Positions 1 to 24,547 of a stretch of DNA of 34,916 nt are shown in pieces. Every line of letters begins with the position of its first letter. The first letter of the stretch is position 1. The DNA lies in IMG/VR virus record IMGVR_UViG_3300008450_000194, positions 1-34,916 of that record. The stretch is one strand, 5' to 3'. The notes below the pieces were generated by a model that saw only the letters and a list, made by a program, of their open reading frames with translations, was not told the origin of the DNA and searched no databases. Position numbers and translations under genes: made by a program. This DNA is from a virus.

Positions 1-26
1 GTCGGGAACCAATACACACTTTCTTT

Positions 27-45
27 TTGTAACTCTCGTTTTTCG
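27..45 (+). promoter_or_regulatory. Promoter-like repeated element upstream of the late operon
   Basis: The 19-mer TTGTAACTCTCGTTTTTCG lies about 70 bases before the first gene of the plus-strand operon. It recurs with a single difference at 5159-5177, just before the protease-capsid gene. Both copies are followed by a T/G-rich stretch and then a GTGGT/GGTAG-type motif. Two intergenic copies upstream of highly expressed late genes suggest a phage promoter or activator site. I saw no other copy in the window. The role is inference. Confidence 0.45.
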
Positions 46-112
46 TTTTTTGAGGGTTTCGCGGTACGGTGGTCCTGTTCTCTGCTCAGACCATTCACTC
101 GCGACCCTCAAC

Positions 113-730
113 ATGGCGAAGAAACATCATGCGACCGTAATCCTTCTTTGGCTGCTGCTGGCCATGGGCTGCGCCCCTGCTCCGACCTATGTTGCCCTGC
201 CTGCACCTCGGGCAGAAACACCTGCGATCAACCCGCCGTTTTCAGTCCGGCAAAAGAACTGGCTGAGTCCGGCGAACGAGGGGAGCTGCGTGCATGCGTC
301 GCTCTCGACCATGCTTCACTGGCAAAACAAATTCGAGCTAGCCAAATGGTGGAGATCGAAATACTCGGGCGGTGAGTGGACTGATCAACTTCGCCGTAGG
401 TTGGATGCTGCTCAAATCCCGTACGCCTTCACCGAGCGAGCTAATCTGCAATTGCTTGATGACGCTCATGCCTATCGACGCGGTGCTTTGCTGTGGTGGA
501 AACCGTCGCACTGCTGCAATTTTGTCGGGTGGGCCAAAGGTACCGACGGCAAGATCTACGCCTGCATCTTGGACAACAACAAAACGGAACGCTACGAATT
601 CGTCGAGCGGTCCGAGTTTCATCGTCAATGGGCTGCTTACGGGGGCTTTGCGCTGACCACGCTGTACGACCCTCCGAGCCCTCCTGTTTTCCGGTCGTAC
701 AAAGCGGTTGAGGATGAATGGAAATGGTAG
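113..730 (+). CDS. C39-like papain-fold cysteine peptidase, putative lipoprotein
   Basis: The chosen ATG gives a 205-residue protein that starts with a basic-hydrophobic signal (residues 1-19, rich in Leu and Trp) ending in Ala-Met-Gly-Cys20. This resembles a lipobox, so the protein is probably a lipid-anchored exported protein. A TTG start 63 bases upstream is possible but would bury the signal. The mature part has papain/C39-type landmarks: Gly-Ser-Cys59 after an Asn-Glu, His133 in a Ser-His-Cys-Cys-Asn-Phe segment, and Asp154-Asn155. This is the Cys-His-Asn/Asp order of peptidase C39-like proteins. It could cleave a peptide or peptidoglycan cross-link, act in superinfection exclusion, or be inactive. 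It is the first gene of the late operon, just before a membrane-anchored thioredoxin-like protein. Family is moderately sure, role unknown. Confidence 0.6.
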   Translation: MAKKHHATVILLWLLLAMGCAPAPTYVALPAPRAETPAINPPFSVRQKNWLSPANEGSCVHASLSTMLHWQNKFELAKWWRSKYSGGEWTDQLRRRLDAAQIPYAFTERANLQLLDDAHAYRRGALLWWKPSHCCNFVGWAKGTDGKIYACILDNNKTERYEFVERSEFHRQWAAYGGFALTTLYDPPSPPVFRSYKAVEDEWKW

Positions 731-1701
731 GTACCTGCAATACTTGCCCCAACGGAGGACAACGTGTCAAAGTCGCGGTTTCTTTCGGTCTGGTGGCTTT
801 GGCTCTGTTTGCTGCTCTGTGTGTTGTCGTTGGTGAGCGAGTTGCTCCACGAATTGAGGAGTCCCTCGGACTTGAGCCCGTAAAGCAACAATACACGCCT
901 GGCGGAATTAGCTATGACGAGCTGCGAAACGCACCGCTAAACACAGCTCCCGTCAACGAGCGAGCATCAAAAGAGATCAAGCGCCAAGACATCTACTGTC
1001 CACCATGCGACCAGGTACGCAGTCCAGGCTTCGTGCGTGATCCGAATTACCTTCTGCCGTTTGTCCCAAGCGTGCAACAATCGCCACAGATTAAGCAGCA
1101 GGTGCAAGTCACATCCATACCGTGGGCCAATAAGTGCTCGATGGCCGTCTTTGTCGGTACCGATCCCGCATCGCAACGACTGCTCGACTGGGTGAATCGT
1201 GACTCGCAACTTTCCGATCTACGCAAAGCCGTCAACTTCCAGGCGTACACCAAGGACAATCCGCTGTATCGAGAACGGTTTGGTGGCGTTGTACCCACCG
1301 ATCAATTTCCGGCGGTCGTTTTCACCGATTCCCGAGGCGGACACATCTACGTCGCGGGAGCCTCGTCGCTCCCGTCTTCGGCCAGTGGTCTCTATGCGGC
1401 CATCAAATCGGCTGCTGAAGTCCAGCAAGGTGTTGTTCAAGACGCTGCGAATCCTGGTGGGCCGAACATGCAAGAATTCGATCCGACTTGCCCTGACGGC
1501 AATTGCCCGCCTGGCCGCGTGCCTCTGCTAAATCCTGACCGCGATAAGCTGTTTCCGAATCTGCGTCCAAGGAATCCGGATCCCGTCCAATCGCTCCTGT
1601 ATTGGATCTGGAATCCTGGCGAAGCAATTTTGGCGGTGCTCTGCGGAATCGCTTTCATCACGCTACTTTTCCTGATCGTCGTTAAGGTGCTCCGCAATTG
1701 A
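718..1701 (+). CDS. Membrane-anchored thioredoxin-like protein with CPPC motif
   Basis: The protein has 327 residues. ATG 718 sits 4 bases after GAGG; a second in-frame ATG at 724 is 10 bases after it and overlaps the upstream stop. There is a hydrophobic helix at about 19-39 and another at about 303-323, so both ends look membrane-embedded with a large soluble region between. Residues 94-97 are Cys-Pro-Pro-Cys. The region 136-235 alternates strands and helices like a thioredoxin fold, including a Phe-Pro-Ala-Val-Val-Phe stretch (198-203) resembling the cis-Pro strand, followed by a Gly-Gly turn. The core lacks the usual CxxC at the helix start, since the CPPC lies about 40 residues before the fold. 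A second pair, Cys258 and Cys263, flanks a Pro-Asp-Gly-Asn spacer. It may be a thiol-active envelope protein, but no function is proven. Confidence 0.55.
   Translation: MEMVGTCNTCPNGGQRVKVAVSFGLVALALFAALCVVVGERVAPRIEESLGLEPVKQQYTPGGISYDELRNAPLNTAPVNERASKEIKRQDIYCPPCDQVRSPGFVRDPNYLLPFVPSVQQSPQIKQQVQVTSIPWANKCSMAVFVGTDPASQRLLDWVNRDSQLSDLRKAVNFQAYTKDNPLYRERFGGVVPTDQFPAVVFTDSRGGHIYVAGASSLPSSASGLYAAIKSAAEVQQGVVQDAANPGGPNMQEFDPTCPDGNCPPGRVPLLNPDRDKLFPNLRPRNPDPVQSLLYWIWNPGEAILAVLCGIAFITLLFLIVVKVLRN
764..883 (+). CDS. Possible embedded out-of-frame membrane peptide
   Basis: Inside the previous gene, in another frame, a GTG at 764 follows GGAGG (754-758) at 5-base spacing, the best ribosome-binding site in this area. 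It opens a 39-residue peptide with a basic start (Ser-Lys-Ser-Arg), a Trp/Leu/Cys-rich hydrophobic stretch of about 18 residues, and a polar tail. This resembles nested lysis peptides such as Rz1-type genes, but there is no lipobox. The host frame is also hydrophobic here, so the hydrophobicity may be a by-product of Leu/Val codons read one base over. Low confidence. Confidence 0.25.
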   Translation: MSKSRFLSVWWLWLCLLLCVLSLVSELLHELRSPSDLSP

Positions 1702-1763
1702 CCCTACTTTTTTTCCTCGCTGTCGTCGTGTTCCTCTGTGCTGTCTGTTCGCAAATGGGATGA
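1698..1763 (+). CDS. Possible 21-residue membrane peptide
   Basis: A TTG codon overlaps the stop of the thioredoxin-like gene (TTGA) and opens a 21-residue peptide that is almost wholly hydrophobic (Leu-Leu-Phe-Phe-Leu-Ala-Val-Val-Val-Phe) with two cysteines. AAGG lies about 10 bases upstream. The ORF ends 6 bases before the next ATG, filling an otherwise empty gap in a tightly packed operon. The weak start codon and tiny size make it tentative. Confidence 0.28.
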   Translation: MTLLFFLAVVVFLCAVCSQMG

Positions 1764-1769
1764 GCTGTT

Positions 1770-2039
1770 ATGAGCCTCTTTTTACTCCTGATGTTTCTTG
1801 CAATCGCAATCCTCGTCGTCCTCTGGTGGAAACCATCCAAACCTCGAGGCAGTCAATCAGCCTCGATCCTTTCGGCGATCGCATCACCTGGCGACATCGC
1901 TAGCGATCGCGATGCCGTGCTCGAATCGGAGATCGCCGAGATCGTCTCAGTGATCCGCCAAGACGAAGCAGATCGTCGCCGAACTGCTGCTCTTGAACGC
2001 CTGGCCGCAATCCAAGCCTCCACCAAGAAAACCAAATGA
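1770..2039 (+). CDS. Small single-pass membrane protein with coiled-coil tail
   Basis: The 89-residue protein opens with a strongly hydrophobic helix (residues 2-19, ending in Trp-Trp-Lys-Pro), followed by a Ser/Ala linker. A charged helix from about 45 to the end, rich in Glu, Asp, Arg and Ala, is likely a coiled coil. Its stop overlaps the next start (ATGA). An N-terminal anchor plus cytoplasmic or periplasmic coiled coil is also seen in spanin-like and i-spanin proteins, so a lysis role is possible, but no sequence signature proves it. It belongs to the membrane cassette that precedes the portal gene. Confidence 0.55.
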   Translation: MSLFLLLMFLAIAILVVLWWKPSKPRGSQSASILSAIASPGDIASDRDAVLESEIAEIVSVIRQDEADRRRTAALERLAAIQASTKKTK

Positions 2040-2245
2040 GCAACAATCCAACCATCACAGATCAGCAGCTAGCTGACGCAGCTGCTGCTCCCCAGTCTGT
2101 GTCCGCCGATGGCGTGACAGTGACCAACCGATCGGTTGAGGATCTGCGTAGAGCTCGGGAAGAATTGGCGAACACCAATGCCTCCAAGCCTCGACGCGGT
2201 GTCCTGTTTTCGAAAATGATCCCTGGATCCGCACGAGGTCAATGA
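2036..2245 (+). CDS. gpW-like head completion (head-tail joining) protein
   Basis: This 69-residue protein lies shortly upstream of the portal, with only a small membrane-protein gene between, close to the position of gene W before the portal in lambda. Its pattern matches gpW in outline: an N-terminal helix with Gln-Gln-Leu-Ala-Asp-Ala, a short beta hairpin around Gly-Val-Thr-Val, then Ser-Val-Glu-Asp-Leu-Arg-Arg starting a second helix. A basic tail follows. gpW joins the filled head and stops DNA leakage before tail attachment. The start overlaps the upstream stop (ATGA). The assignment rests on size, position and motif outline rather than strong identity. Confidence 0.55.
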   Translation: MSNNPTITDQQLADAAAAPQSVSADGVTVTNRSVEDLRRAREELANTNASKPRRGVLFSKMIPGSARGQ

Positions 2246-2436
2246 TGCCTGCCTGGGTAACCGCTTTGATCACGTCGATCCTACGCATCCTGACTACGGC
2301 CTCGGCCCGCCATTTCGGATTTGCTGCCGGTTGGTTCCTCCTGCTAGCCGGATTGCTTTTCAATTCGATGGCCACTCTCATCCTGGGTGGGGCCGTAGTC
2401 TTCTTTTTGTACGTGTCTCCAGCCAACAAGGCCTGA
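2242..2436 (+). CDS. Small two-helix membrane protein, holin candidate
   Basis: The 64-residue protein starts in an ATGATG overlapping the previous stop. It has two hydrophobic segments (about 24-40 and 43-59) with a short polar turn between, preceded by an amphipathic start with Arg residues. Size and topology fit a small class II holin or a membrane anchor for virion assembly. It lies just before the portal gene. There is no family-specific motif, so function is open. Confidence 0.45.
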   Translation: MMPAWVTALITSILRILTTASARHFGFAAGWFLLLAGLLFNSMATLILGGAVVFFLYVSPANKA

Positions 2437-2438
2437 TC

Positions 2439-4124
2439 ATGCTGCTGCTTGACCAATACGGCAAACCGATCGACACCAAGGCCCTCGCTGCTGCGCGTCG
2501 CATTGCGGATCGCCAACGCAAAAACGAGTCGCTGTCTGCTTCGTACGATGCTGCCGCCAACACGGTCGAGACGCAAAAACATTGGCGATACGCGGACAAC
2601 CTTTCCGCAGCTGCGGCCAATTCGGTTTCTGTCCGCAAGACACTGCGCGAGCGATCTCGCTATGAGTGCCTGGAAAATAACTCGTTCGCCAAGGGTATCG
2701 TTTTGACCCTGGCAAACGACACGATTTCCACTGGGCCTAGCCTCCAAGTGATGCTCCCCGATTCGTCCGCCTCACGAGCGATCGAGCAGAAGTGGCGAAA
2801 GTGGTGCAAGGACGTAAAGCTCGCGAGCAAGCTGCGTACTGCACGGATTGCCAAAGTGATCGACGGGGAAACAGTGATCCTCAAGGGAACCAACCGAAAA
2901 TCTAAGAATCCGGTCAAGCTCGACTTTCGCGTCATCGAGTGCGATCAACTTGCCACGCCATTCTATGCAGATGGACTGCCAAACAAGGTTGACGGCATTG
3001 AATTCGATGACTTCGGGAACCCGACGCTCTACCACGTCTTGAAGGGGCACCCGGGCGACCGCTGGCCAATGCAAGCTTTCGCAAAAACGGACGTTGACCC
3101 CGATGACATCATTCACCTGTACCGAGCCGAGCGACCTGGCCAGATGCGAGGGATTCCCGAGCTGACGCCAGCTTTGCCGCTCTTTGCGATGCTCCGTCGC
3201 TATACGCTCGCAGTGATCACCGCTGCCGAGAATGCTGCGGACTTCTCGGCAATTCTCAAGACCCAATCGAACGCTTTCGACTCTGCGTCCGATGGCATCG
3301 ACGACATTGACCCGTTTGATTTCGTTCAGATCGATCGTGGATTGATGACCAGCCTGCCCAAGGGCTGGGAAATGGTGCAGTTTGATCCGAAGCAACCGAC
3401 GACGACCTACAAGGAATTCCGCGACGCGATCCTCAACGAGATCGCTCGATCGGTACACATGCCGAGCAACAAAGCCCTCGCAGACTCATCGAAGTACAAC
3501 TACAGCTCTGGCCGTCTGGATCACCAGACTTACTATGAGTCGATCGCCATCGAGCGATCCCAGTGGGAGGTTGAATGCCTCGACCGAATCTTCGAATGGT
3601 GGTTGGACGAAGCTCTCATGCTCGATGGGTTCCTGCCTGGCTTCGATGCAGTTGACGAGATGCCCAAAGTTTGGCGATGGCCACCGCAGAGAGACGTAAA
3701 TCCAGCAGAAATCGCCGATGTGAACATCGCGCTGATCGATGCCGGTTTGAAAACTCGGCAGCAGTTCCTGATCGAACAGAACATTGATCCCGAGGCCCAC
3801 CAACAGCAGCTCGAAGAGGAAGGCTGGGTTGATCCCAAGAAAATCGAAGCTTCCAAGCTCGCTCAGTCTGCTCCCGCAGTTCCGACGGATCCAACGGCTC
3901 AAGCCTCTGATACTCCAAATCCGTCCGAGCCAGCACCCACCGGCGAATTTGCAAACATGTCTCGCCTTCAATTGACTCGCAACATGCGAGCGATTGACGA
4001 CACGCTGACCAAGCTGGACGAGGGGGTCTGGACTCCTAAACGAGCTCGGGTTGTGCTGGAATCCCTCGGGCTCAAAGAACGCACGATCGCCAATCTTCTT
4101 GAAGAATACGAGCAGGCAGCGTGA
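2439..4124 (+). CDS. Phage portal protein, lambda family
   Basis: The ATG at 2439 gives 561 residues, the usual size of lambda-family portals. It lies 2 bases after the previous stop. The N-terminal half has the typical pattern: a helical start, a Tyr-Asp-Ala-Ala stretch, the Arg-x-Arg-x-Tyr-Glu-Cys-Leu-Glu-Asn-Asn segment, then Gly-Ile-Val-x-x-Leu-Ala-Asn-Asp. In the middle is the Ile-His-Leu-Tyr-Arg-Ala-Glu-Arg-Pro-Gly-Gln-x-Arg-Gly-Ile-Pro block that marks this family. The C-terminal part is a Pro/Gln/Ala-rich linker followed by a charged helix. The protein forms the dodecameric ring at one capsid vertex through which DNA is pumped and to which the tail connects. Its stop overlaps the GTG start of the integrase gene. 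Confidence 0.93.
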   Translation: MLLLDQYGKPIDTKALAAARRIADRQRKNESLSASYDAAANTVETQKHWRYADNLSAAAANSVSVRKTLRERSRYECLENNSFAKGIVLTLANDTISTGPSLQVMLPDSSASRAIEQKWRKWCKDVKLASKLRTARIAKVIDGETVILKGTNRKSKNPVKLDFRVIECDQLATPFYADGLPNKVDGIEFDDFGNPTLYHVLKGHPGDRWPMQAFAKTDVDPDDIIHLYRAERPGQMRGIPELTPALPLFAMLRRYTLAVITAAENAADFSAILKTQSNAFDSASDGIDDIDPFDFVQIDRGLMTSLPKGWEMVQFDPKQPTTTYKEFRDAILNEIARSVHMPSNKALADSSKYNYSSGRLDHQTYYESIAIERSQWEVECLDRIFEWWLDEALMLDGFLPGFDAVDEMPKVWRWPPQRDVNPAEIADVNIALIDAGLKTRQQFLIEQNIDPEAHQQQLEEEGWVDPKKIEASKLAQSAPAVPTDPTAQASDTPNPSEPAPTGEFANMSRLQLTRNMRAIDDTLTKLDEGVWTPKRARVVLESLGLKERTIANLLEEYEQAA

Positions 4125-5164
4125 GCTCCCTGACGTACGAGGAAAAGACTCGGATCGGTTATCGCCTCCGAGTCTATACCGCTGCTGGCCGTCGCTCGAT
4201 TTGGCTTGGGAAGATCACACAGCCAGAAGCCGTGGCCGTCCAGCGTCACGTTGATGAAATCATCGCAGCCCAAACTGCTGATCTCCCAATCCCACGCCAA
4301 ACCGCGATCTGGCTCGATCGACTTTCGCTGGATCTGAAATCCAAGCTGGTTTGCATCACCGGGTCGATTCGCACGGTACGCTCGGCGATCGACGAGTATC
4401 TACACTCCAAACGTGACAAGCTGGCCGCCTCGACGGTGGAGTCTGTGACCAGGTCTTTGGAGATCCTTGGGGATGCAATCGGTGCTAGGCGAATTGACGG
4501 AGTGTCAGCCGAGGAAATCGCCTCGATCTATGATGCGCTAGAGGTTGGAGAGTCCACCAAGGGCAAGATCGCCAAAGACTGGAAAGCGCTGTTCCGCTGG
4601 TGCGAGGACAACCGCTGGATCCTGAGCAATCCAGCCAAGCGGCTAAGTACGGCCGTACGTGTTCGCGAAAAGCATTTCGTGACGATCGAGACTGCCGAAA
4701 AGATCCTTGCCGCCTGCGACGATCCCGAGCTGCAGTTGGTCGTCGCTCTGTCTCGGTTTGGTGGTTTGCGGATCTCCAGCGAGATTCGCGACTTCACTTC
4801 GGACTCGATCGACCACACGGCCAAGCGGATCAAGATCAATGATACCAAACGGGGGGTGGTTCGCGAGATTCCCATTTTCCCAGAGTTGGCGAAATGGTTG
4901 CCAGCACCTGGCGTTGAGCCATTGCCAACCCTTTCGCAGCTTTCCCATGCAGGCATCACCGCTCGATTCAACGCCTGCGTTCTCAAGGCAGGGCTCGAGA
5001 CCTGGGACGCTCCATGGCATTCGATGCGAGCCTCGCGCGAAACAGAACTGATCGCTGCATTCGGTCTGGCAACTGCGTCGAAATGGATCGGCAATAGCGA
5101 AAAGGTCGCGATGGCGAACTATGCCCTGGTGCCCGATTCTGACTGGGCCAAGGCGGTATTGTAA
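4121..5164 (+). CDS. Tyrosine recombinase / phage integrase
   Basis: The 347-residue protein starts with GTG overlapping the portal stop (GTGA), so it is translated in the virion operon. The N-terminal 60 residues look like an arm-binding domain with Arg-Leu-Arg-Val-Tyr and Trp-Leu-Gly-Lys. A SAM-like core-binding domain spans about 85-175. The catalytic domain has Gly-Gly-Leu-Arg217, Lys243 in a beta hairpin, His300-x-x-Arg303 and Tyr334. The usual second histidine is Asn325 (Ile-Gly-Asn-Ser), so one catalytic residue is altered though the rest is intact. Family members cut and rejoin DNA for integration or excision. Location between portal and capsid genes is unusual, since integrases normally sit next to attP. 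Confidence 0.88.
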   Translation: MSSLTYEEKTRIGYRLRVYTAAGRRSIWLGKITQPEAVAVQRHVDEIIAAQTADLPIPRQTAIWLDRLSLDLKSKLVCITGSIRTVRSAIDEYLHSKRDKLAASTVESVTRSLEILGDAIGARRIDGVSAEEIASIYDALEVGESTKGKIAKDWKALFRWCEDNRWILSNPAKRLSTAVRVREKHFVTIETAEKILAACDDPELQLVVALSRFGGLRISSEIRDFTSDSIDHTAKRIKINDTKRGVVREIPIFPELAKWLPAPGVEPLPTLSQLSHAGITARFNACVLKAGLETWDAPWHSMRASRETELIAAFGLATASKWIGNSEKVAMANYALVPDSDWAKAVL

Positions 5165-5177
5165 CTTTCGTTTTTCG
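5159..5177 (+). promoter_or_regulatory. Promoter-like element before the capsid gene
   Basis: TTGTAACTTTCGTTTTTCG matches the element at 27-45 in 18 of 19 positions. It overlaps the integrase stop codon and sits in the only sizeable gap between integrase and capsid genes. It is followed at about 20 bases by a GCGTGGTAGTCT stretch that could serve as a -10 region. An extra promoter here would let the capsid gene be expressed apart from the integrase. The role is inferred from position and repetition. Confidence 0.5.
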
Positions 5178-5209
5178 GGTTTTATGGCCTGCGTGGTAGT
5201 CTCGCACGC

Positions 5210-7498
5210 ATGAGCAAATCGCACCGGGCAACCACGAAACGCAAGCGAACCGACCCCAGTGTCATCGTCGCCTCGTCCAAGACCAACTTGGAACTGCGCA
5301 CCAGTGGCGACGCCATCGCCTTGCAAGCCTCAGATCCTAACACCCCCGACGCGCTGCCCAGTTTTAGTGGGATCGCTTATACCGGTGGTGTCATGCATCC
5401 CAAGCTTGCGATTCAGTGGAATGGCCCAGTAGTGATTGATTTAGCAGGACTTGACGCACCGGTCGGACCAGTGCATCGAGACCACGACGAATCAAGGCCA
5501 GTTGGGCATCTCACCGCAGTGGCAAACGACGGTACCAAGCTTTCCGTTACAGGAGTGTTTTCCGTCCCGTCTGTTGACCAGCAGGAGATTGTCTCGGGAG
5601 CTAGAAACGGATTTCCATGGCGACCCTCGGTCGGTGTGAAGATCCTCACTTACTCCACGATCCCACAAGGCCAAACCCTACAGTGCAATGGACGCACGTT
5701 TGAGGGGCCTATTCTCGTCGTCAAACGATCGCAACTTAAAGAGGTCTCCCTGGTAACGATTCCAGGCGACCCTGATTCCTCAGTCTCTATTGCCGCTTCG
5801 GCCAACGAAAACATGCCCACTTTCGAAGACTACTGCAAATCTCTAGGCCTTGATCCTGCGACTCTTTCGCCAGAGGCCCTTAGCGCCCTGAAGATTTCCT
5901 ACGCTGAACAAGTCGAAAACTCTGCTGAACCTGGTTCTGGCATGGACGCCGGAGCCAATCAGCAACCTGCCGCTCAATCTGGTGACTCCTCTTCACAACC
6001 AACGGATCCAAATATGGCCAAACCTGCTGCTGCCGCTGCTTCTTCTCAACCTGATCTCCAAGCCGGTGGAAACGTTGATCTGACGGCCTACCGTAAACAA
6101 CTTGCTGATGAAACCCACCGAGTGAACGAAGTACGCACCCTCTGCGCGAAGTTTGGCAATCCTGTCGTGATGGTCGCTGGTAAGGAAGTCGACTTGGCCG
6201 CCCATGCTATCGAGGCGGGCCTCACCGGCGATCAAACCGAATTGCTCGCTCGGCGTCACCAGGACATCGAAGCAGCTCGGGATTCGCGGCCACGAGGCCC
6301 TGCGATCCACTCGCGATCCTCGCAAAGCTCCGTTGAAATTGGTGCCCTCCAAGGTGGCTTGATGCTCCGAGCCGGAATGGATCTGGACAGCAAGGCCTTC
6401 GAGAATCCAAACGTCAGGCGAAAGCTCCCTGGATGGTTGCAAGCTGGGGTTAACGATCCTTCGCGAGCAAGCGTTATGGATCGAGCCCACGAGTACCGCG
6501 ACATCACCATGGTCGAGGCCTGCAAGCTCTCTTTGCAAGCTCGCGGAATCGACGCTCCGTCGAACCGCGTGGACATGGTGCAAGCTGCATTTTCCAGCGG
6601 TAGCGTAGCTGTTCTGTTCGGTGCCACGATCGGTGCCAAGATGCTCGAAAGCTACTCAGAAGTTTCCGACTTTTCTGAAGGGTTTTGCACCGAAGACGAG
6701 AACCCAGACCTCGAAGAACACAACCGCAATCGAATGCAGGCTTCTCCAAGCCTCAAGTTGCACCCAGTCGGTGGATCGGCTCAGCATGCTAGCCGTCGTG
6801 CACTGACCGAGAAGTCGCAAGTGTCGCGATTCTCCGAGCAGCTCAAAGTCGACGAAGCCGACATGTTCTCGGACAATTTCTCGAAGCTCAAGGACACCCC
6901 GCGAGATTTCGGTTTGGCTGCTGGCCGCCTGCGTCCAGAGCTCGTCGCCTCGGTGTTCATGGGCAACCCGACGCTGCTCCAAACCAATCGCGCTTTGTTC
7001 AATGCGACCGACGGAAACACTGCCACCGGTAAGGCTCTGGCACGTGCGACCCTTAGCGAAATGATCGCAGCGATCAGCAAGCGAAAGGATGGGGATGCGA
7101 CGCTCAATCTCCAGACGACCCACTTGGTCGTTCCGCCCGAGCTGCTCGACGCCGCTGTCCAATTGTGCTACTCGGCCAATCTGTCGAACGACAGCGGATC
7201 TGGTGAACTCAACCCGATCAAGAAGTACGGCATCACTCCAGTGAGCGACGCTCGATTCTCGAACGGTATGGTTCACCCGATCACCGGGGCCGCTTTGGCT
7301 GGCTCGGCTGTCACCTACTACGGTGTCTCGGCCCAGGCTCGCACGATTGAAGTGGTTTACCTCCAAGGTGCAGGTCGCGTCCCAGTCGTTCGAACCGAAA
7401 CGCTCGTTGGTGGCGAATTTGGCATCGTGATCGATGTCCGCCACTACATCGGCGTGACCCCGCTGGATTGGCGTGGTTTCCATCGATTCGTTGGCTAG
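5210..7498 (+). CDS. Fused prohead protease and major capsid protein
   Basis: The 762-residue protein has two parts. Residues about 25-200 resemble a prohead serine protease: a His-Arg-Asp-His-Asp-Glu-Ser segment (His89/His92), then Gly-Phe-Pro-Trp-Arg-Pro-Ser140-Val-Gly, which supplies the likely nucleophile, and the Leu-Lys-Glu-Val-Ser-Leu-Val block typical of these enzymes. A Gln/Pro/Ser/Ala-rich region (about 230-290) plus a charged helix is the likely scaffold and cleavage zone. Residues about 350-762 form a Mu/HK97-type major capsid protein ending in a beta-rich domain with Gly-Val-Thr-Pro-Leu-Asp-Trp. The protease would release mature capsid by self-cleavage during head assembly. A promoter-like element precedes the gene and a hairpin follows it. 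Confidence 0.82.
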   Translation: MSKSHRATTKRKRTDPSVIVASSKTNLELRTSGDAIALQASDPNTPDALPSFSGIAYTGGVMHPKLAIQWNGPVVIDLAGLDAPVGPVHRDHDESRPVGHLTAVANDGTKLSVTGVFSVPSVDQQEIVSGARNGFPWRPSVGVKILTYSTIPQGQTLQCNGRTFEGPILVVKRSQLKEVSLVTIPGDPDSSVSIAASANENMPTFEDYCKSLGLDPATLSPEALSALKISYAEQVENSAEPGSGMDAGANQQPAAQSGDSSSQPTDPNMAKPAAAAASSQPDLQAGGNVDLTAYRKQLADETHRVNEVRTLCAKFGNPVVMVAGKEVDLAAHAIEAGLTGDQTELLARRHQDIEAARDSRPRGPAIHSRSSQSSVEIGALQGGLMLRAGMDLDSKAFENPNVRRKLPGWLQAGVNDPSRASVMDRAHEYRDITMVEACKLSLQARGIDAPSNRVDMVQAAFSSGSVAVLFGATIGAKMLESYSEVSDFSEGFCTEDENPDLEEHNRNRMQASPSLKLHPVGGSAQHASRRALTEKSQVSRFSEQLKVDEADMFSDNFSKLKDTPRDFGLAAGRLRPELVASVFMGNPTLLQTNRALFNATDGNTATGKALARATLSEMIAAISKRKDGDATLNLQTTHLVVPPELLDAAVQLCYSANLSNDSGSGELNPIKKYGITPVSDARFSNGMVHPITGAALAGSAVTYYGVSAQARTIEVVYLQGAGRVPVVRTETLVGGEFGIVIDVRHYIGVTPLDWRGFHRFVG

Positions 7499-7535
7499 TA
7501 AGCCTGACGACTCGCAACTGAGTCCATGATTCCCA

Positions 7536-7562
7536 CAGCGGGGCGAATTGTCCTGCTGTTTT
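7536..7562 (+). terminator. Hairpin with short T-run after the capsid gene
   Basis: CAGCGGGGC pairs with GTCCTGCTG (9 bp including two G-U pairs) across a GAATT loop, followed by TTTTC. It lies 37 bases after the capsid stop and 27 bases before the next gene. The short T-run suggests a weak or partial terminator that would raise capsid mRNA relative to downstream genes. Confidence 0.45.
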
Positions 7563-7588
7563 CTCAACCTTAGATCTCGACCCAACCA

Positions 7589-7852
7589 ATGAAACTGCGA
7601 CTCCGACAAGCCGTGTCGTTCGACGGCAACCTTTTGCCAGCAGGCCATGTGATCGACATGGACAAGGATCAATCTGGCATCAGTGCCGAGTGCCTTGTGC
7701 AGCGTGAATGGGCGGACGTCGTCACTGACGACACCCCCGCGTCTCCAAACGTTGCCAATCCAACGACCGACGATCCGAATGACGATTCCAAGGGATTTGA
7801 GGCGAAAGCCGAGATCGCTCCGGAACCACCCAAGGCTAAGCGAAAAAAGTAA
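7589..7852 (+). CDS. Small head-region protein with acidic, then basic tail
   Basis: The 87-residue protein has a compact N-terminal beta segment (Leu-Arg-Gln-Ala-Val-Ser-Phe, Pro-Ala-Gly-His-Val-Ile) resembling short phage proteins found after the capsid gene. An Asp/Pro-rich disordered stretch and a Lys-Arg-Lys-Lys end follow. Position between capsid and decoration genes suggests a head accessory protein. No family was recognised with confidence. Confidence 0.6.
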   Translation: MKLRLRQAVSFDGNLLPAGHVIDMDKDQSGISAECLVQREWADVVTDDTPASPNVANPTTDDPNDDSKGFEAKAEIAPEPPKAKRKK

Positions 7853-7892
7853 TCGCTGGCGAATCCCGCTACCTTTTTCATCCTAGAGAAAC

Positions 7893-8249
7893 ATGGCAAC
7901 TTACAAACATGACGGCGACTTTCGCCAAATCACCGCTGGTGCGGACCTCGTCAATGGAACGATTGTCCAGACCGCTGACGGCCTGGCCGGTATCGTCGAA
8001 GGCCTCGCTGGCATCAAGAACGGCAAGGTTGGAAACGTACGGGTCGATGGCATTGTCACCTGTGACAAAGCATCGGCCACTGTGATTGCCGCTGGGGATC
8101 GCCTGCAATTGGCGACGGCAACCCAGCTTGTCACGGGCAAGGCTTCTGGTGCTGCCGATGCTGGCAACATCATCATTGGCCGCGCTGCACTGGCTGCTGG
8201 AAACGGCACGACCACTGTCGACGTCGACATGAACCGGGCCGCAGTCTAG
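7893..8249 (+). CDS. DUF2190-type capsid decoration protein
   Basis: The 118-residue Gly/Ala/Val-rich protein has the pattern of the DUF2190 family: a start with Ile-Thr-Ala-Gly-Ala-Asp-Leu-Val-Asn-Gly, then Val-Gln-Thr-Ala-Asp-Gly-Leu-Ala-Gly-Ile-Val. Repeated beta turns and an Ala-Gly-Asp-Arg-Leu segment follow. Known members are capsid cement proteins that bind the outer head lattice. Position just after the capsid genes fits. The gene starts 40 bases after the previous stop, with only a weak ribosome-binding site (GAGA). Confidence 0.72.
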   Translation: MATYKHDGDFRQITAGADLVNGTIVQTADGLAGIVEGLAGIKNGKVGNVRVDGIVTCDKASATVIAAGDRLQLATATQLVTGKASGAADAGNIIIGRAALAAGNGTTTVDVDMNRAAV

Positions 8250-9937: not shown

Positions 9938-10183
9938 ATGCCTATTCCACGAGTCCGCAAAGGGGATGAGATTGCGATTGATTTTCTCGACCACGGGGAA
10001 TCTTCGCACGGTCCGCTCGAATTCACCGTCTATGGACGCGTGATTTCGCAAGACAAAAACCACATCGTTGTCGGTTCCTGGGTCTACATGGATCCAGGAA
10101 AACGAATCAAGGCTGACGACTACAACTGCACTCAATTCACCATCGTTCGAAGCACCATTCGAGCGATTCGTTTCGTTCAATAG
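9938..10183 (+). CDS. Small unknown protein between tube and chaperone genes
   Basis: The 81-residue protein is mainly beta: Asp-Glu-Ile-Ala-Ile-Asp-Phe, Phe-Thr-Val-Tyr-Gly-Arg-Val and Ile-Val-Val-Gly-Ser-Trp-Val-Tyr strands, then Phe-Thr-Ile-Val-Arg. GGGG lies about 8 bases upstream of the ATG. It could be a small tail accessory. No family recognised. Confidence 0.55.
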   Translation: MPIPRVRKGDEIAIDFLDHGESSHGPLEFTVYGRVISQDKNHIVVGSWVYMDPGKRIKADDYNCTQFTIVRSTIRAIRFVQ

Positions 10184-10758: not shown

Positions 10759-10983
10759 ATGGCGAATGAAGTCAACCTGGCCCAGTGGGATCAGACCTCC
10801 GAAATCATCGCACAGTTTGCCAACCTGTTCCGTCCAAAACGAGCTCAACCCTATCGAGCGATCGATTTCAATCCCTACCGAAAAGACCAACCCAAACCAA
10901 GCATCACACGCGCTGACCTGCATGCACTCAAGGGGCTGCTGCCGGTGGTCGTTGTGACGCTTCCGCAATCCAATGCAAATTGA
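10759..10983 (+). CDS. Tail assembly chaperone extension (gpGT-like), probably reached by -1 frameshift
   Basis: From the ATG at 10759 this frame encodes 74 residues. The frame is already open upstream, from about 10546 at least, and reads Tyr-Lys-Phe-Gly-Tyr-Trp-Pro-Val-Ile-Leu at about 10669-10698. It continues to Phe-Ser-Leu-Arg-Glu-Leu-Thr-Trp-Met-Ala, then Trp-Asp-Gln-Thr-Ser-Glu-Ile-Ile. The Leu-Arg-Glu-Leu...Trp-Asp pattern is typical of the T part of tail chaperones. No ATG, GTG or TTG in this frame starts the conserved block, so fusion by -1 frameshift is likely. I found no canonical X-XXY-YYZ slip site. Confidence 0.6.
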   Translation: MANEVNLAQWDQTSEIIAQFANLFRPKRAQPYRAIDFNPYRKDQPKPSITRADLHALKGLLPVVVVTLPQSNAN

Positions 10984-11419
10984 CAATCAATCGCTTCGAC
11001 AACTGATCAAGCTCGATGAGCAAGCGACGGCACTTTTTCAGCAAGGCCGATACGGCGACTGCGCGGTGCGATGCGTCGAGCTCGCTCCCAAGGTGCCGAA
11101 GCCATTGCAGATTTCCAAACTGGGAATCGTCGCAATTTATAGCCATGATCCAGCGATGGCAGCACAAGTGCTGGCTGCTTTGGAATCTGCGGCCAAGGTG
11201 AATCCGATCATTAGCGTAATGGTGTCGTTCATGGGGCCCGGTAACCCCGAAAGCAGCCTCCCGAATTTCGGCGATCCAAATGTACGAGCCGCATTGACCC
11301 GACCGCAACCGGTGGGCCTGGGACTTACCTTTCAGCAGGCAGCACCATTGCTAGCCGCCGGTGAGCAATCAGACACGATCACAGGCCAAGACGTTGAGTC
11401 GCTCGGAGGTGTCCTGTAA
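10973..11419 (+). CDS. Unknown tail-module protein
   Basis: The 148-residue protein overlaps the end of the chaperone extension by 11 bases and ends in a TAATG overlap with the next gene. The first 60 residues are helical with a TPR-like look (Ala-Leu-Phe-Gln-Gln-Gly-Arg-Tyr-Gly-Asp-Cys), followed by Gly/Pro-rich sequence. No family recognised. Operon position suggests tail assembly. Confidence 0.55.
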   Translation: MQIDNQSLRQLIKLDEQATALFQQGRYGDCAVRCVELAPKVPKPLQISKLGIVAIYSHDPAMAAQVLAALESAAKVNPIISVMVSFMGPGNPESSLPNFGDPNVRAALTRPQPVGLGLTFQQAAPLLAAGEQSDTITGQDVESLGGVL

Positions 11420-12024
11420 TGTCAAGCACCGTTAAGCCAACAACGCCATCGTTCACCACGATCATCTCGGCTCAGCGAGTCGCGACCTCGAACATTGTCG
11501 TCGCTGCTAGCCTGCTCGATTTGCGCGAACGACGCGGGGCCTGGATCACTGCTTTCATTGGTCGCCAATCCGGCACTCCAAGCCGCGCTGCTTATTTTGC
11601 GATTCGGCCCACGGACAACAACACGGATGTCGTGCCTGCGACTATTTTCGATGTCGTCGGACAAGGCCCAACGACTGCCGCATCGGCGACCACAATCAGT
11701 GCTGCTCTCGCGACCAACGCAAACACAGTCACGGTTGCAGCAGCCGGTTCTCTAGCAATCGGAGACACTGTTTGCGTCTTTAGCGGCACGACCTCAGACA
11801 TCCAGTGGAATCGAATCTGCGGTGGTTCGGGCACGTCATGGACCGTCGAGCGAAACTGGCGGATTGCAAATGCAAGCGGAGACAACTTCACGAACCTCGC
11901 CGATGTTCGCCGAATATGGATTCCGGGTGGCGATCAGTACGAATTTCGATTCATCAATTTCACTGGAATCGGGTGCGTGTGCCAACTCATGGCTGAGACA
12001 CACGAAGGGGACACGATTACCTGA
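11419..12024 (+). CDS. Unknown Thr/Ala-rich structural protein
   Basis: The 201-residue protein is beta-rich with many Thr, Ala and Ser residues: Thr-Thr-Ile-Ser-Ala-Ala-Leu, Val-Thr-Val-Ala-Ala-Ala-Gly-Ser-Leu-Ala-Ile-Gly-Asp. This is typical of fibre or tail-surface proteins. The Gly-Asp-Thr-Val-Cys-Val-Phe turn resembles a short carbohydrate-binding or hinge repeat. It overlaps both neighbours by one base or so and immediately precedes the LamG fibre, so a fibre-associated role is likely. Confidence 0.5.
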   Translation: MSSTVKPTTPSFTTIISAQRVATSNIVVAASLLDLRERRGAWITAFIGRQSGTPSRAAYFAIRPTDNNTDVVPATIFDVVGQGPTTAASATTISAALATNANTVTVAAAGSLAIGDTVCVFSGTTSDIQWNRICGGSGTSWTVERNWRIANASGDNFTNLADVRRIWIPGGDQYEFRFINFTGIGCVCQLMAETHEGDTIT

Positions 12025-13256
12025 TGTTGAACTATTGGCAACCCGGTTATGAATGGATGGGGCACGGGCTACAGGGCCATTGGTGCCCCTCGTTCGCGCA
12101 TAACCAGTTGCAGTCGCCGGACGTATCGGGATTCGGAAACCATGGGCAGTTGTTGAACTTTGCGAACAACGGCAACAATGCGTTAGTCACGAGTGGTGGC
12201 CAGCTTGCGCTGGATTTTGATGGGGTGAATGATCGCGTTACCACGACGTCAGTTAGCACAACAATGTCTACTGGCTTTACAGTCAATTTTTGGCTAAAAG
12301 CAAGAAACACTGGGGGAATGATTCTTGGTAATAACTCCAATAATGTTAATCATATACGTCTATTTGGTACTACCACAGCTACATCGTTGCGCGTCGCAGT
12401 TGGGACATATACATTTGATTTAACAGCTTCTTCTCGCAACACCCAAGACTGGTCAGCTATTACAGTTGTTGGACTTGGAACAACAGTTGCTTGGTATTAT
12501 AACGGGTTGTTAGTTCAATCTGCAACAAATGCAGCGGCATCTAGCGGTGGCATGAATGTAAATACTATTGGTACTGGAGCTTCATCTCCTTTATTTTTTG
12601 ACGGCCAACTCGACGACATTCGCATTTACAGCCGACCATGGACGGCGCAGGAAATACTTGCCACCTACCAAGCAGACCGTGGCGGGGGCATGGGATACCA
12701 GCCGCCGTTGCGGCGCAGTTATGCAGCACTGCTGGGTGCGTTGGTACTTGCGTGCGACACTGGCAATTACACCCTGTCCGGCCAATCGGCAGGTCTGTTC
12801 GCGTCTCGATCGCTTGCTGCCGATCAAGCTCAATACATACTCTCCGGCAATGCCGCCAACACACTTGCAAGCCGCCTGCTGTCCTCCGATCCAGCTACTT
12901 ACAACGCAACCGGCAACGATGCTGCGACGCTCTGCGCTCGACTGCTCGATGGCGGAGCTGCGGCGTACGCTCTGACTGGCACCGACGCTGGACTGATCGC
13001 TAATCGAAAGCTGACGGCAGACCAAGCGATCTGCTTCCTTGCTGGCAACAACGCCGAGCTGCTGCGGACGATTAAACTCAACGCGGGCTCGATGCAACTG
13101 CAACTCGACAACTTTGCCGCATCGCTGCTGGCCGGTCGCAAGATCTCAGCCGATGGAGCTCAGTACCTCCTAGTCGTTTCCGACGCAAACCTAACTAGCT
13201 CCGCTTCTGGAGTCGCCCCCTACTACTACCTGTTCATGATGCGAGGACCTCAGTAA
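12024..13256 (+). CDS. Tail fibre-like protein: LamG domain plus seven 22-residue repeats
   Basis: The 410-residue protein has a concanavalin/LamG-type jelly-roll domain at about 60-215: Leu-Asp-Phe-Asp-Gly-Val-Asn-Asp, Phe-Thr-Val-Asn-Phe-Trp-Leu-Lys, and Phe-Asp-Gly-Gln-Leu-Asp-Asp-Ile-Arg-Ile-Tyr with Ala-Gln-Glu-Ile near its end. LamG domains commonly bind sugars. Residues 241-394 are seven exact-length 22-residue repeats. The last residues (Pro-Tyr-Tyr-Tyr-Leu-Phe) are aromatic. The DNA for much of the LamG domain (about 12230-12600) is clearly richer in A+T than its surroundings, suggesting it was swapped in. A receptor-binding or virion-surface role is likely. Confidence 0.68.
   Translation: MLNYWQPGYEWMGHGLQGHWCPSFAHNQLQSPDVSGFGNHGQLLNFANNGNNALVTSGGQLALDFDGVNDRVTTTSVSTTMSTGFTVNFWLKARNTGGMILGNNSNNVNHIRLFGTTTATSLRVAVGTYTFDLTASSRNTQDWSAITVVGLGTTVAWYYNGLLVQSATNAAASSGGMNVNTIGTGASSPLFFDGQLDDIRIYSRPWTAQEILATYQADRGGGMGYQPPLRRSYAALLGALVLACDTGNYTLSGQSAGLFASRSLAADQAQYILSGNAANTLASRLLSSDPATYNATGNDAATLCARLLDGGAAAYALTGTDAGLIANRKLTADQAICFLAGNNAELLRTIKLNAGSMQLQLDNFAASLLAGRKISADGAQYLLVVSDANLTSSASGVAPYYYLFMMRGPQ
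12744..13205 (+). repeat. Seven tandem 66-bp (22-residue) repeats
   Basis: Residues 241-394 of the LamG protein divide into seven units of exactly 22 residues. A typical unit is Leu, Ala-Asp-Gln-Ala, x-Tyr-x-Leu-Ser-Gly, then Asn/Asp-Ala-x-x-Leu-x-x-Arg. The units have diverged at DNA level, so this is an old protein repeat and not a recent DNA expansion. Such repeats are seen in phage fibre proteins and probably form a repetitive stalk. Confidence 0.75.
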
Positions 13257-13672
13257 TGGCAGCGTTCAACAAGTTTCAATCGTTCACCAAGAATGTCGCC
13301 GAGGGCAAGATCAACCTTGCGTCGGATCAACTCAAGATCGCTTTGACGAATGTCGCTCCGGTTGCGACGAACGCAGTTTTGGCCGATCTGACCGAGATCA
13401 GCTATACCAACGCAAGCACTCGAAACATCACCACCAGCAGCAGCACCCAGTCGGGGGGAGTGTACAAGCTCACGGTGGCCGATTTGGTTGTCACTGCTAG
13501 CGGTGGATCTGTCGGGCCATTCCGCTACGTCGCCGTCTATGACGACACGCCAACGAGTCCAGCCAAACCGCTGATCGGTTGGTACGACTACGGATCCTCG
13601 ATCACGCTCAACGCTGGTGAGACCTTCACCACGGACTTCGACCAAGTCAACGGCCTTTTGACCATCACCTAA
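13256..13672 (+). CDS. Phage structural protein, fibre-associated family
   Basis: The 138-residue protein starts with a pattern I recognise from many phage proteins of unknown role: Phe-Asn-Lys-Phe, then Leu-Ala-Ser-Asp-Gln-Leu-Lys-Ile-Ala-Leu-Thr-Asn. A Glu-Ile-Ser-Tyr-Thr and a Phe-Arg-Tyr-Val-Ala-Val-Tyr-Asp-Asp strand follow. It is beta-rich and lies among tail fibre genes. ATG overlaps the upstream stop (TAATG). It likely forms part of the tail tip or fibre; no enzyme motif is visible. Confidence 0.6.
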   Translation: MAAFNKFQSFTKNVAEGKINLASDQLKIALTNVAPVATNAVLADLTEISYTNASTRNITTSSSTQSGGVYKLTVADLVVTASGGSVGPFRYVAVYDDTPTSPAKPLIGWYDYGSSITLNAGETFTTDFDQVNGLLTIT

Positions 13673-21322: not shown

Positions 21323-21555
21323 AGCACTTGCTCGATCACACTGCTGGCCCACAAGGCCGGTACCGAAGACAGCCAAGAAACACTGGCCCAACGTGCAAGT
21401 GTTGTGGCGCTCCCTACGTGGCTCGATCGACACGACCACGGATCACTTACTACTACCCTCGATGCCAATGTGCTCCGAGGCATGGAATTCCAAAGCTTCG
21501 CCCAAGCAGATTCAACCATGGCCAAGAAACCTCCAGCAGCAGCTCCAGCCGATGA
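21298..21555 (+). CDS. Small candidate zinc-ribbon protein before the large terminase
   Basis: The ATG at 21298 is 10 bases after a perfect AGGAGG (21282-21287) inside the end of the SNase-like gene. The 85-residue product has Cys-Lys-Cys-Cys-Gly-Ala-Pro-Tyr, then Tyr-Tyr-Tyr-Pro-Arg-Cys-Gln-Cys, a plausible zinc ribbon. It overlaps the start of terL by 38 bases. Against it, the second half is rich in Arg/Ser/Pro as out-of-frame sequence often is. Another frame here is open from the SNase stop through to terL and also looks protein-like. It could hold the place of a small terminase subunit. Confidence 0.42.
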   Translation: MVVFCAELEHLLDHTAGPQGRYRRQPRNTGPTCKCCGAPYVARSTRPRITYYYPRCQCAPRHGIPKLRPSRFNHGQETSSSSSSR

Positions 21556-23785
21556 TTTCGACGACGAGGACGAGGTCGACAACAAGCGGCCTCGTGATTC
21601 GTATAGCAAACATCGTAAGCGACAGGCTTCCAAGGCAAAGGAAGAATCGACCGAAGCTCGTGACATTGGCCCGATCCCTGCGATCGTCAATCCAAAGCGA
21701 CGCGAGTCCTGTCGTAAAGACCTGAAGCGGTTCCTGCTGACGTACTTTAAAGAATCGTTTCCGCTGCCTTTTTCGCCAGACCATGAGCGAATCCTTAAAG
21801 ACATCGAACAACGCGCGATCGACGGTGGTTTGAAATGCATCGCTATGCCTCGTGGATCCGGCAAGACAACGATCTTGCTGCGAGCGATGCAGTGGGTGCT
21901 GTGTTACGCGCACCGACGGTTTGGAGTGCTCGTTGAAGCAGACGAGGGTGCAGCCGAGGAATCGCTCGACGTGGTCAAAATAGAGTGGGAAACCAACCCG
22001 CTACTGCTCGAGGATTTCCCGGAGATCGCTTACCCCATTCGATGCCTCGAAGGGATCACCCAGCGAGGCAACGCCCAAACCACCAACGGCAAGCGAACGC
22101 TGATCGGATGGAAACGCAAAGAGCTCGTCTTTCCAACCGTTGAAGGATCACCGGCAAGTGGTGCTGTCATTCGTGTGACGGGGATCCTGGGCCGAGTGCG
22201 CGGAATGCAAAAAGTAACCGCAGACGGCAAGACGCAGCGTCCGGATTTCGTCCTGGTGAACGACCCTCAAACCGACACGTCTGCATTATCCGATCCAGAG
22301 TGTGCCAAGCGGGAAAAGGTGATTGGTGGAGCCATCCTAGGTCTAGCTGGACCTGGAAAGCGAATTGCAGGGTTTGGAGCAGTCACGGTCATTCGCGAGG
22401 GAGATGTCGCAGACCGGATGCTTAACACCAAGCTGATGCCCAAGTGGCACGGCGACCGCTGCAAGCTTGTCTATGAATGGCCAACGAATACGGATTTGTG
22501 GGACAAGTATTTCGACCTGCGATCCGAGGAGATTGCAGAAGGAAACGACGAGCACCCAAAGGCGACCAAATACTACAAAGCTAACCGCAAAGAAATGGAT
22601 GCTGGATCCAAGGTCGGCTGGGAGCATCGGAAGTACACGCACGAACTATCCGCGATCCAGCATGCAATGGATCTGCGGTTCGACAACCCAGACACATTTG
22701 ACGCGGAGTATCAGAATGAACCGAAATCAGCTGTTGTTGCTGTCGATGGCATGCATTGCCTTACGTCAGACGAATTTTGCTTGCGCATACTGCCAACCCA
22801 CCGTCGTGGAGAAATCCCCGACTGGGTCGAGCACATCACCCTCGGATGCGACGTCCAGGGATCTTCGCTCTGGTGGGTCGTCACTGGTATCGGTTCGGAC
22901 TTTTCCGGACTCGTGGTTGATTACGGAATCTGGCCAGATCCTGGCATCGACTACATCACGCTCTCAGAGATCGATCGAACGATCATACGAGCCACCGGAA
23001 TCCGATCGCCCAACGAGTCGCTACTGGCAGCGCTGAACAAGCTTCGAGACGAACGACTGGCCGTCACGTACACACGCGATGACGGCACGCAGCTGCGGCC
23101 AGAGATCATGGTCGTTGACGCTGGCTATCAGTCCGAGGTTGTCTATCGATTTAGCCAGCAGCATCAGCACGTGGTGCCCAGTCACGGTAAAGGGGTCACG
23201 GCCCGGCAGCGTCCATGGGCGATGGAAAAAAAGAAGGCAGGCGAGCGCATGGGATTCGGCTGGCGGATGCCTCCGACACGAGGAACCCGGGCCCCGCGGT
23301 ACGCCTTGATCGACACTAACACCTGGAAGACCTCGATGGCCGAACGATGGACGACTGATGCCGGTGAGCCTGGTGCCTGGTGGCTTTACCGAGCCGCTCC
23401 GCTGCGTCACAGAATGATTGCCGACAACTTGTCCGCAGAATACCCGACCAAGACCTCGGGCCACGGCAGAGAGCTGTTTGAGTGGGCCATTCGGCCTGGC
23501 CGAGACAACCACCTGCTCGACGCCACAATCCTGGCCGCGGTGGGTGCGTCGATCCTGGGAGTAAAAGTCCCCGGGGAGTCCGACCGAGTCGTCAAGCGAC
23601 GCAAGATCTCGATGAGCGACCGCCAAAGCTCTCAATCAAGCGAATCCCGCGAGCAAGACGCATTTCGGGCTATGGGGTCAAAGACGGCCAACGATCGCTT
23701 CGAAGCCGTCATGGAAGCAGTTAGCAAGCCTACTGGAAAGATGAGTCTAGCCGAGTTGCGAGCGCTCAGGCGCAAGTCTAGCTGA
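21518..23785 (+). CDS. Terminase large subunit, lambda gpA-like
   Basis: From ATG 21518 the protein has 755 residues; GTG 21404 or ATG 21482 would extend it. A charged, disordered start (1-60) is followed by the ATPase domain: Walker A Pro-Arg-Gly-Ser-Gly-Lys-Thr-Thr (111-118) and a Walker B-like Phe-Val-Leu-Val-Asn-Asp-Pro. The nuclease part has acidic residues in Gly-Cys-Asp-Val-Gln-Gly, Val-Val-Asp-Ala-Gly and Asn-His-Leu-Leu-Asp-Ala-Thr. These features match GpA-type terminases, which cut and pump DNA into the procapsid. It is the last plus-strand gene, about 17 kb from the portal, and its end overlaps a convergent minus-strand gene. Confidence 0.92.
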   Translation: MAKKPPAAAPADDFDDEDEVDNKRPRDSYSKHRKRQASKAKEESTEARDIGPIPAIVNPKRRESCRKDLKRFLLTYFKESFPLPFSPDHERILKDIEQRAIDGGLKCIAMPRGSGKTTILLRAMQWVLCYAHRRFGVLVEADEGAAEESLDVVKIEWETNPLLLEDFPEIAYPIRCLEGITQRGNAQTTNGKRTLIGWKRKELVFPTVEGSPASGAVIRVTGILGRVRGMQKVTADGKTQRPDFVLVNDPQTDTSALSDPECAKREKVIGGAILGLAGPGKRIAGFGAVTVIREGDVADRMLNTKLMPKWHGDRCKLVYEWPTNTDLWDKYFDLRSEEIAEGNDEHPKATKYYKANRKEMDAGSKVGWEHRKYTHELSAIQHAMDLRFDNPDTFDAEYQNEPKSAVVAVDGMHCLTSDEFCLRILPTHRRGEIPDWVEHITLGCDVQGSSLWWVVTGIGSDFSGLVVDYGIWPDPGIDYITLSEIDRTIIRATGIRSPNESLLAALNKLRDERLAVTYTRDDGTQLRPEIMVVDAGYQSEVVYRFSQQHQHVVPSHGKGVTARQRPWAMEKKKAGERMGFGWRMPPTRGTRAPRYALIDTNTWKTSMAERWTTDAGEPGAWWLYRAAPLRHRMIADNLSAEYPTKTSGHGRELFEWAIRPGRDNHLLDATILAAVGASILGVKVPGESDRVVKRRKISMSDRQSSQSSESREQDAFRAMGSKTANDRFEAVMEAVSKPTGKMSLAELRALRRKSS

Positions 23786-24526: not shown

Positions 24527-24547
24527 GCGAGTCTTGCTAAGACTCGC
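24527..24547. other. Perfect 9-bp hairpin over the methyltransferase stop codon
   Basis: GCGAGTCTT, loop GCT, AAGACTCGC form a perfect inverted repeat. The stop codon of the minus-strand methyltransferase lies inside it. No T-run follows on either strand, so it is not a standard rho-independent terminator. It may stabilise the mRNA 3' end or act as a processing or protein site. Confidence 0.5.

Follow-up and report, generated by a model that had tools for sequence, protein, structure and literature searches.

A conserved tyrosine recombinase gene between the portal and capsid genes of a phage group, probably distinct from its lysogeny integrase

The stretch of DNA analysed here, called the window, is the 34,916-nt viral record IMGVR_UViG_3300008450_000194; coordinates are window positions unless a relative is named, and relatives carry our own G or L labels. 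The window encodes a tyrosine recombinase within its block of virion genes, in the same orientation as that block, between the genes for a lambda-family portal protein and a head maturation protease/major capsid fusion (Table 1), and this arrangement is conserved across an uncultured phage group. The GTG start codon of the recombinase gene (4121-4123) overlaps the TGA stop codon of the portal gene (4122-4124) as GTGA, and a gap of 45 bp separates its end from the capsid/protease gene. The initial annotation had proposed an integrase placed between portal and capsid genes and coupled to the former through GTGA. Both proposals were borne out, with PF05136 identifying the portal upstream and PF25209 the capsid/protease downstream. 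The recombinase gave the sole match to PF00589 in the 34,916-base record at an expectation value (E) of 0.001.

The product is a tyrosine recombinase of lambda-Int architecture. Against PHROGs it matched the integrase family phrog_1 (E 5e-25), and against Pfam it gave weak matches to PF00589 (E 3.5e-5) and PF22022 (E 1.6e-4), both under the Pfam curated cut-offs. The catalytic set occurs in order as R217, K243, H300, R303, N325 and Y334, with Asn at the His/Trp position. The residues named in the initial annotation (R217, K243, H300-R303 and Y334, with Asn325 in place of the second His) were thus correctly located. All six putative catalytic positions were identical in 19/19 aligned sequences, and Asn325 was also identical in all 16 sequences of a further alignment. 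An Asn at the equivalent of residue 325 was found in one of six aligned integrases from the cos side of related genomes (L008 4068-5501; see below), the other five having His, the residue of lambda integrase as well. Asn325 was considered as a lesion marking lost function and rejected, being invariant in the portal-linked family and present in a cos-side integrase; the substitution is family-wide and by itself no sign of damage.

An AlphaFold model built from 17 sequences had a mean predicted local distance difference test score (pLDDT) of 85, dropping under 50 around the nucleophile (residues 327-334). Among solved structures lambda integrase ranked first, in Foldseek through 1z1b_A (E 1e-9) and in VIA-align through 1z1b_B (Z 16.4 over 292 aligned residues, root mean square deviation 11.0) and 1z1g_B (Z 16.3, model residues 2-333). 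Sequence identity to lambda integrase is about 16%, and a sequence search of the solved structures with the recombinase profile returned no match at E 0.01. Tn1549 Int and Xer were also among the structural matches. The model contains the core-binding (about 84-178) and catalytic (about 183-335) folds, and its N-terminus forms strands at 2-7, 13-20 and 23-30 followed by a helix at 34-53, an arm-binding-like arrangement. Lambda Int aligned from its residue 13-14; most VIA-align matches span only residues 81-335, and the arm-binding-like assignment, drawn from few of them, is tentative. Arm-binding domains comprise three strands and one helix and, in a survey, are tied to integrases of mobile elements (PMC8138268).

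A protein search with the recombinase found 48 viral contigs at 72-100% identity, and profile searches added 17 contigs at 50-53% identity and two more, giving 67 loci. The portal gene is visible in 60 of these, the capsid gene in 60, both in 53, and no locus shows neither. The GTGA overlap is kept in 41 of the 44 close relatives listed; in the three exceptions (L025, L035 and L039) a methyltransferase gene, or in L035 its end, sits ahead of the recombinase. A second search was made with the portal instead of the recombinase to avoid circularity and gave 64 loci, of which four stop at the portal and two, distant at 24-25% identity, lack the recombinase in the available DNA. In 57 of the 58 informative loci the recombinase lies behind the portal, 56 by tblastn and one (L099) by the first recombinase codons behind an inserted methylase. 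The sole informative locus without it, L108, shares about 92% identity with L060 and L064 across the end of the portal gene; its deletion begins at the recombinase start and stops about ten codons short of the recombinase end, fusing the portal frame to the last recombinase codons (L108 491-2443). Because near relatives keep the recombinase, its absence from L108 is a loss in one lineage and not a primitive absence.

The ratio of nonsynonymous to synonymous substitution rates (dN/dS) had a median of 0.11 and a maximum of 0.16 among close relatives (86/91 pairs, five being dropped with dS outside 0.05-1.8) and a median of 0.13 and a maximum of 0.195 in the distant clade (45/45 pairs). Although dS is high for most pairs that include the window, the close pair of the window and L004 gave a dN/dS of 0.047 at a dS of 0.27. 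Judged by these ratios, the recombinase is under purifying selection. Its distances correlated with those of the portal (Mantel r 0.87, p 0.0005, 12 representatives), the corresponding r values being 0.74 for recombinase and capsid and 0.69 for portal and capsid, and on this measure the recombinase is co-inherited with the portal. The initial annotation had set out a recent insertion, with relatives carrying int elsewhere and lacking this copy, as the contrary case; instead, the 57/58 synteny and the co-inheritance with the portal lead us to reject it. As many independent contigs carry the arrangement, both a recent insertion and a one-off assembly error are excluded.

The initial annotation had contrasted this location with the normal place of int beside attP, implying a misplaced integrase, and here it needs correction. 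Of 15 longer relatives, 10 had a second PF00589 match beside the genome end; in eight of the ten it lies upstream of the portal-linked gene at a distance of 5.3-6.7 kb, and in G003 and G004 at the opposite contig end. None of the five negative records could show a second integrase, because their contigs start past its place: G006 starts 2 bp behind the stop codon of the second integrase of G014, to which it is 99.9% identical over 960 bases at its end; G009 and G012 start 72 and 130 bp upstream of the first-gene match; and G008 and G015 start inside the block. In G003 the second integrase (380 amino acids, 37674-38816) lies directly behind a 78-residue HTH_17 protein that matches excisionase families. 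The layout of G003 is close to that of the window, whose right end falls short of the position of this second integrase. The right side of the window (34916) ends about 4 kb short compared with G003, and the record is probably incomplete. L004, whose recombinase is 97% identical to that of the window, also has a second integrase. The window is therefore probably without one only through the shortness of its record.

The cos-side integrases (e.g. L120 311-1453, minus strand) belong to the same broad family (phrog_1) as the portal-linked recombinase, to which they were homologous by tblastn in 9/10 records, with an identity of 24-26% in five of six aligned and 15% in the sixth. They adjoin the genome end, whereas the constant neighbours of the portal-linked recombinase are portal and capsid. 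The two genes also differ in turnover. The cos-side integrase of G001 has 28-32% identity to its counterparts in the six remaining clade-1 records, against 73-75% for the portal-linked copy, and that of G005 has 19-20% identity to those of G004 and G007, against 86-87%; the other eight of the ten form one related set, 43-99% identical. Clear replacement thus affects the cos-side gene in two of ten records and the portal-linked gene in none. Given that an ordinary integrase also sits next to the genome end in relatives, the portal-linked gene is probably a conserved additional recombinase of the head-gene block and not a misplaced lysogeny integrase.

Two repeat elements bear on its expression. 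E1 lies upstream of the first block gene, and E2 overlaps the recombinase stop codon and ends ahead of the capsid gene. They share 40 bp with a local score of 22, against a maximum of 14 in 300 random window segments, and the exact pattern occurs at both places in five of seven genomes and at one place in G001 and G003, with an extra minus-strand match in G005. We infer that E1 and E2 may be two late promoters, with the recombinase as the last gene of the first unit, which would have it made late, together with the portal. As recombination sites they were rejected: the two copies run in the same direction instead of forming an inverted repeat, and an exchange between them would excise the first gene group.

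The explanation we favour, at about even confidence, is that the gene encodes an active late recombinase other than the lysogeny integrase. Its proposed activity is a site-specific recombination late in phage growth, acting on the phage genome itself at one fixed site. The likeliest job, taking the largest share of the weight within this explanation though under half of it, would be to resolve multimers made by recombination or to re-form monomer circles from replicating DNA; a slightly smaller share goes to another att reaction, for example excision as a back-up, and the remainder is assigned to no particular job. The evidence speaks far more strongly for the general statement, that the recombinase is active, late and distinct from the lysogeny integrase, than for either of these jobs. 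The initial annotation had suggested late roles in DNA resolution, virion DNA packaging or excision control; a function outside lysogeny is preferred here as well, as a hypothesis.

Several points weigh against this explanation. Cos phages package from multimers, and a strong resolvase would oppose packaging of that kind. The arm-binding-like domain of the model fits integration and excision better than simple resolution. A sigma-70 consensus scan of positions 1-8000 returned no promoter and thus does not back the promoter reading of E1 and E2, at least one relative (L108) lacks the recombinase, which is hence not essential there, and exchange of the cos-side gene was seen only twice, the remaining eight of ten records holding a single related set. 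Finally, a target site was sought beside the recombinase gene and none was found.

The attP check proposed in the initial annotation likewise gave no conserved core site: core-size inverted repeats near the gene were in no case conserved, arm sites not having been searched for. A dyad around TGGTAGT (5184-5212, before the capsid start) forms at least 7/10 pairs in 11 of the 20 distinct close sequences, the window itself reaching 3/10 (permutation p 0.015), and some loci of the distant clade have short hairpins after the recombinase stop that differ in sequence and place. None of these dyads and hairpins identifies a recombination site. Farther off, inverted repeats at 10075-10100 and 10142-10167 had looked common to the window and G001 and were dropped, being not conserved in a 22-sequence alignment.

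The strongest rival holds that the gene is a second lysogeny integrase, serving a phage with two host sites and having its att site in the structural region. Its lambda Int-like fold with an arm-binding-like part, and its sharing of phrog_1 with the cos-side integrases, fit such a role. Lambda int, however, adjoins attP together with xis, and here the constant neighbours are portal and capsid, with no excisionase and no conserved core site. Moreover, the portal-recombinase-capsid order was unbroken by a prophage boundary in the 67 loci (53 of which show both sides), though the contigs of virus collections are lysogen-poor. We regard a second lysogeny integrase as unlikely.

An integrase fold could also have lost recombination and been kept as a DNA-binding regulator, like MrpR, YopR and SroF of the SPbeta group. 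MrpR, YopR and the SroF of phi3T do match structurally (Foldseek E 2.7e-5 to 7.9e-4 for the better chains; Z 10.8-12.3), and the recombinase gene ends within E2, ahead of the capsid gene. Lambda Int nevertheless outranks all three as a structural match, and the catalytic R, K, H-x-x-R and Y, needless for a regulator, are invariant in the 19 aligned sequences, which makes this reading rather improbable. We would put at a similarly low level the idea that a mobile gene, selfish or simply a passenger, has settled between portal and capsid. The loss in L108 and the insertion hotspot on the 5' side of the gene (13/61 loci) would suit a passenger, whereas its co-inheritance with the portal and the lack of any other location among the 67 loci would not. 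Searches of 50,697 phage records (E 1e-5) and 72,556 plasmid records (E 1e-3) also gave no homologue. Scans of 84,980 species genomes with the recombinase and portal profiles likewise gave no confirmed relative, within the reach of the short conserved peptides used, which is limited to fairly close relatives. Integrase motifs might hint at a Planctomycetota host. That the protein is carried in the virion and injected to act on incoming DNA would fit only the coupling to the portal and the gene slot, since the slot after the portal often holds a portal-bound minor head protein, and we consider it very unlikely.

The hotspot lies at the portal-recombinase junction: 13 of 61 loci, 11 of which belong to the distant clade, have a gap whose length differs from the median by over 200 bp, and part of this excess is a longer portal in that clade. 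The corresponding count for the recombinase-capsid gap is 3/60, and for seven other junctions 0/44, 0/31, 1/42, 9/35, 0/32, 0/28 and 0/25. Pfam assigned the junction cargo of L025 to the N6/N4 methylases and that of L039 (9552-10013) and L056 (9561-10013) to the Dam type, of which look-alikes were seen by eye in L035, L061, L062 and L099. A 99-residue gene lies ahead of the recombinase in L051, with the same gene end in L065. The stop codons of the cargo fall within the first codons of the recombinase. It could be envisaged that the recombinase acts late as a cassette loader, with its own start-codon junction as the platform that takes methylases and other genes into the head operon, but this is highly improbable, and site-specific loading is not claimed because no common recombination sequence was present at the cargo ends, as checked by eye. 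The portals of L051 (1262-4411) and L065 (2-3004) carry a C-terminal extension of about 480 residues with an HEYGHH motif, presumably metalloprotease-like.

Recombinases in structural modules are already a known kind. In the Tyroviruses (Bacillus phages Thrax1-5 and relatives) the tyrosine recombinase gp50 lies inside the structural module, and the authors infer its co-transcription with structural genes and leave its function open (PMC9703825). The same paper places a recombinase likewise in the structural module of Perkons and of Lactococcus 949-type phages. As described there, gp50 resembles the portal-linked recombinase in its location in a structural module, its conservation within a group and the presence of other recombinases in the genome. 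It differs in belonging to genomes of 160-170 kb, in lying between neck and tape-measure genes and in having Xer-like domains, and it has an attP-like site with two 11-bp repeats right behind its stop codon, which were not found conserved behind the portal-linked recombinase. For gp143 of phiCbK, the authors propose the resolution of replication or recombination multimers; that protein differs in having 208 residues with little beyond the catalytic core, and its location relative to head genes is not stated in the portion of the paper available (PMC3556154).

Three further candidates were set aside as precedents. The "recombinase" annotated among the head-tail genes of Synechococcus phage Sc-Yong805-1 proved to be a minor tail or tail tube protein (phrog_290, E 7e-57). 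The annotation as site-specific tyrosine recombinase XerD at OP858991.1 8326-9264 (L128) is a misannotation: PHROGs places the protein with minor tail proteins, and its relatives are annotated as tail tube. After the Sc-Yong805-1 case the integrase reported in the structural module of S-LBS1 (PMC6157547) was not counted, and P-SS2, where int is listed beside bet (PMC2784084), was not used. Among the papers listed by our literature searches, none had a title or abstract opening that described an integrase between portal and capsid genes. Within the reach of these searches, four features are new: the placement between portal and capsid, the small genome with cos, the additional integrase next to it and the naturally occurring deletion.

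Phages are classed as temperate on the basis of integrase genes, and automated lifestyle calls or attP predictions that treat the portal-linked gene as the integrase could be misled. Within one phage group there are two such genes, an end-adjacent integrase that is replaced in some relatives and a portal-locked one held across the whole group, and a lysogeny integrase can now be separated inside a single group from a recombinase that serves something else. The Tyrovirus puzzle of a recombinase among virion genes also becomes open to comparison here, the group providing over 60 contigs, one of them with a natural deletion.

The window and the contigs of several relatives share a start point a short way ahead of the first gene (Table 1). 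The ends of G003 lack 13 nt that are present between the ends in joined records, and L014 starts with these 13 nt; the gap may represent a cohesive end. Pfam gave no match for the first block gene, which is kept in G001-G005 and G007, or for the conserved protein that follows it. Plus-strand genes continue to the end of the GpA-type terminase gene, and the shared genes to its right are on the opposite strand.

Table 1. Positions of the recombinase gene, its neighbours and associated sequence elements in the window
Feature	Position	Strand	Remarks
Tyrosine recombinase	4121..5164	+	Complete open reading frame, GTG start, 347 amino acids
Portal protein, lambda family	2439..4124	+	Open reading frame 2331-4124, start set from relatives; PF05136, E 7.4e-57
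Head maturation protease/major capsid fusion	5210..7498	+	PF25209, E 3.9e-20; phrog_4523 and phrog_133
Repeat element E1, TTGTAAC-N29-GGTA	27..66	+	Upstream of first block gene; putative promoter
Repeat element E2	5159..5198	+	Overlaps recombinase stop codon, ends 11 nt before capsid ATG; putative second promoter
Genome terminus (cos side)	1..49	+	Contigs of several relatives end at the same point, 'CCCAATGGGAAC[A/T]|RTC...CACAC'
First gene of block	113..730	+	Open reading frame starts at 50, likely ATG at 113; lipoprotein-like start by eye
Conserved protein	718..1701	+	Membrane-like segments by eye
Terminase large subunit, GpA type	21404..23785	+	PF20454, E 1.6e-19; context

Inversion of tail-gene DNA was considered and rejected, as six relatives keep the strand of the window for every shared gene except one weak match. 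The exception is a Dam-type methylase gene, which in the window lies right of the terminase (24537-25061, minus strand) and has a weak 26% match at another place in G007; in some relatives a gene of this type instead occupies the portal-recombinase junction. Four consecutive window genes at 10973-13672 had no tblastn match in G001, G004, G005 and G007, and only two of the four matched in G003, most of the block matching better.

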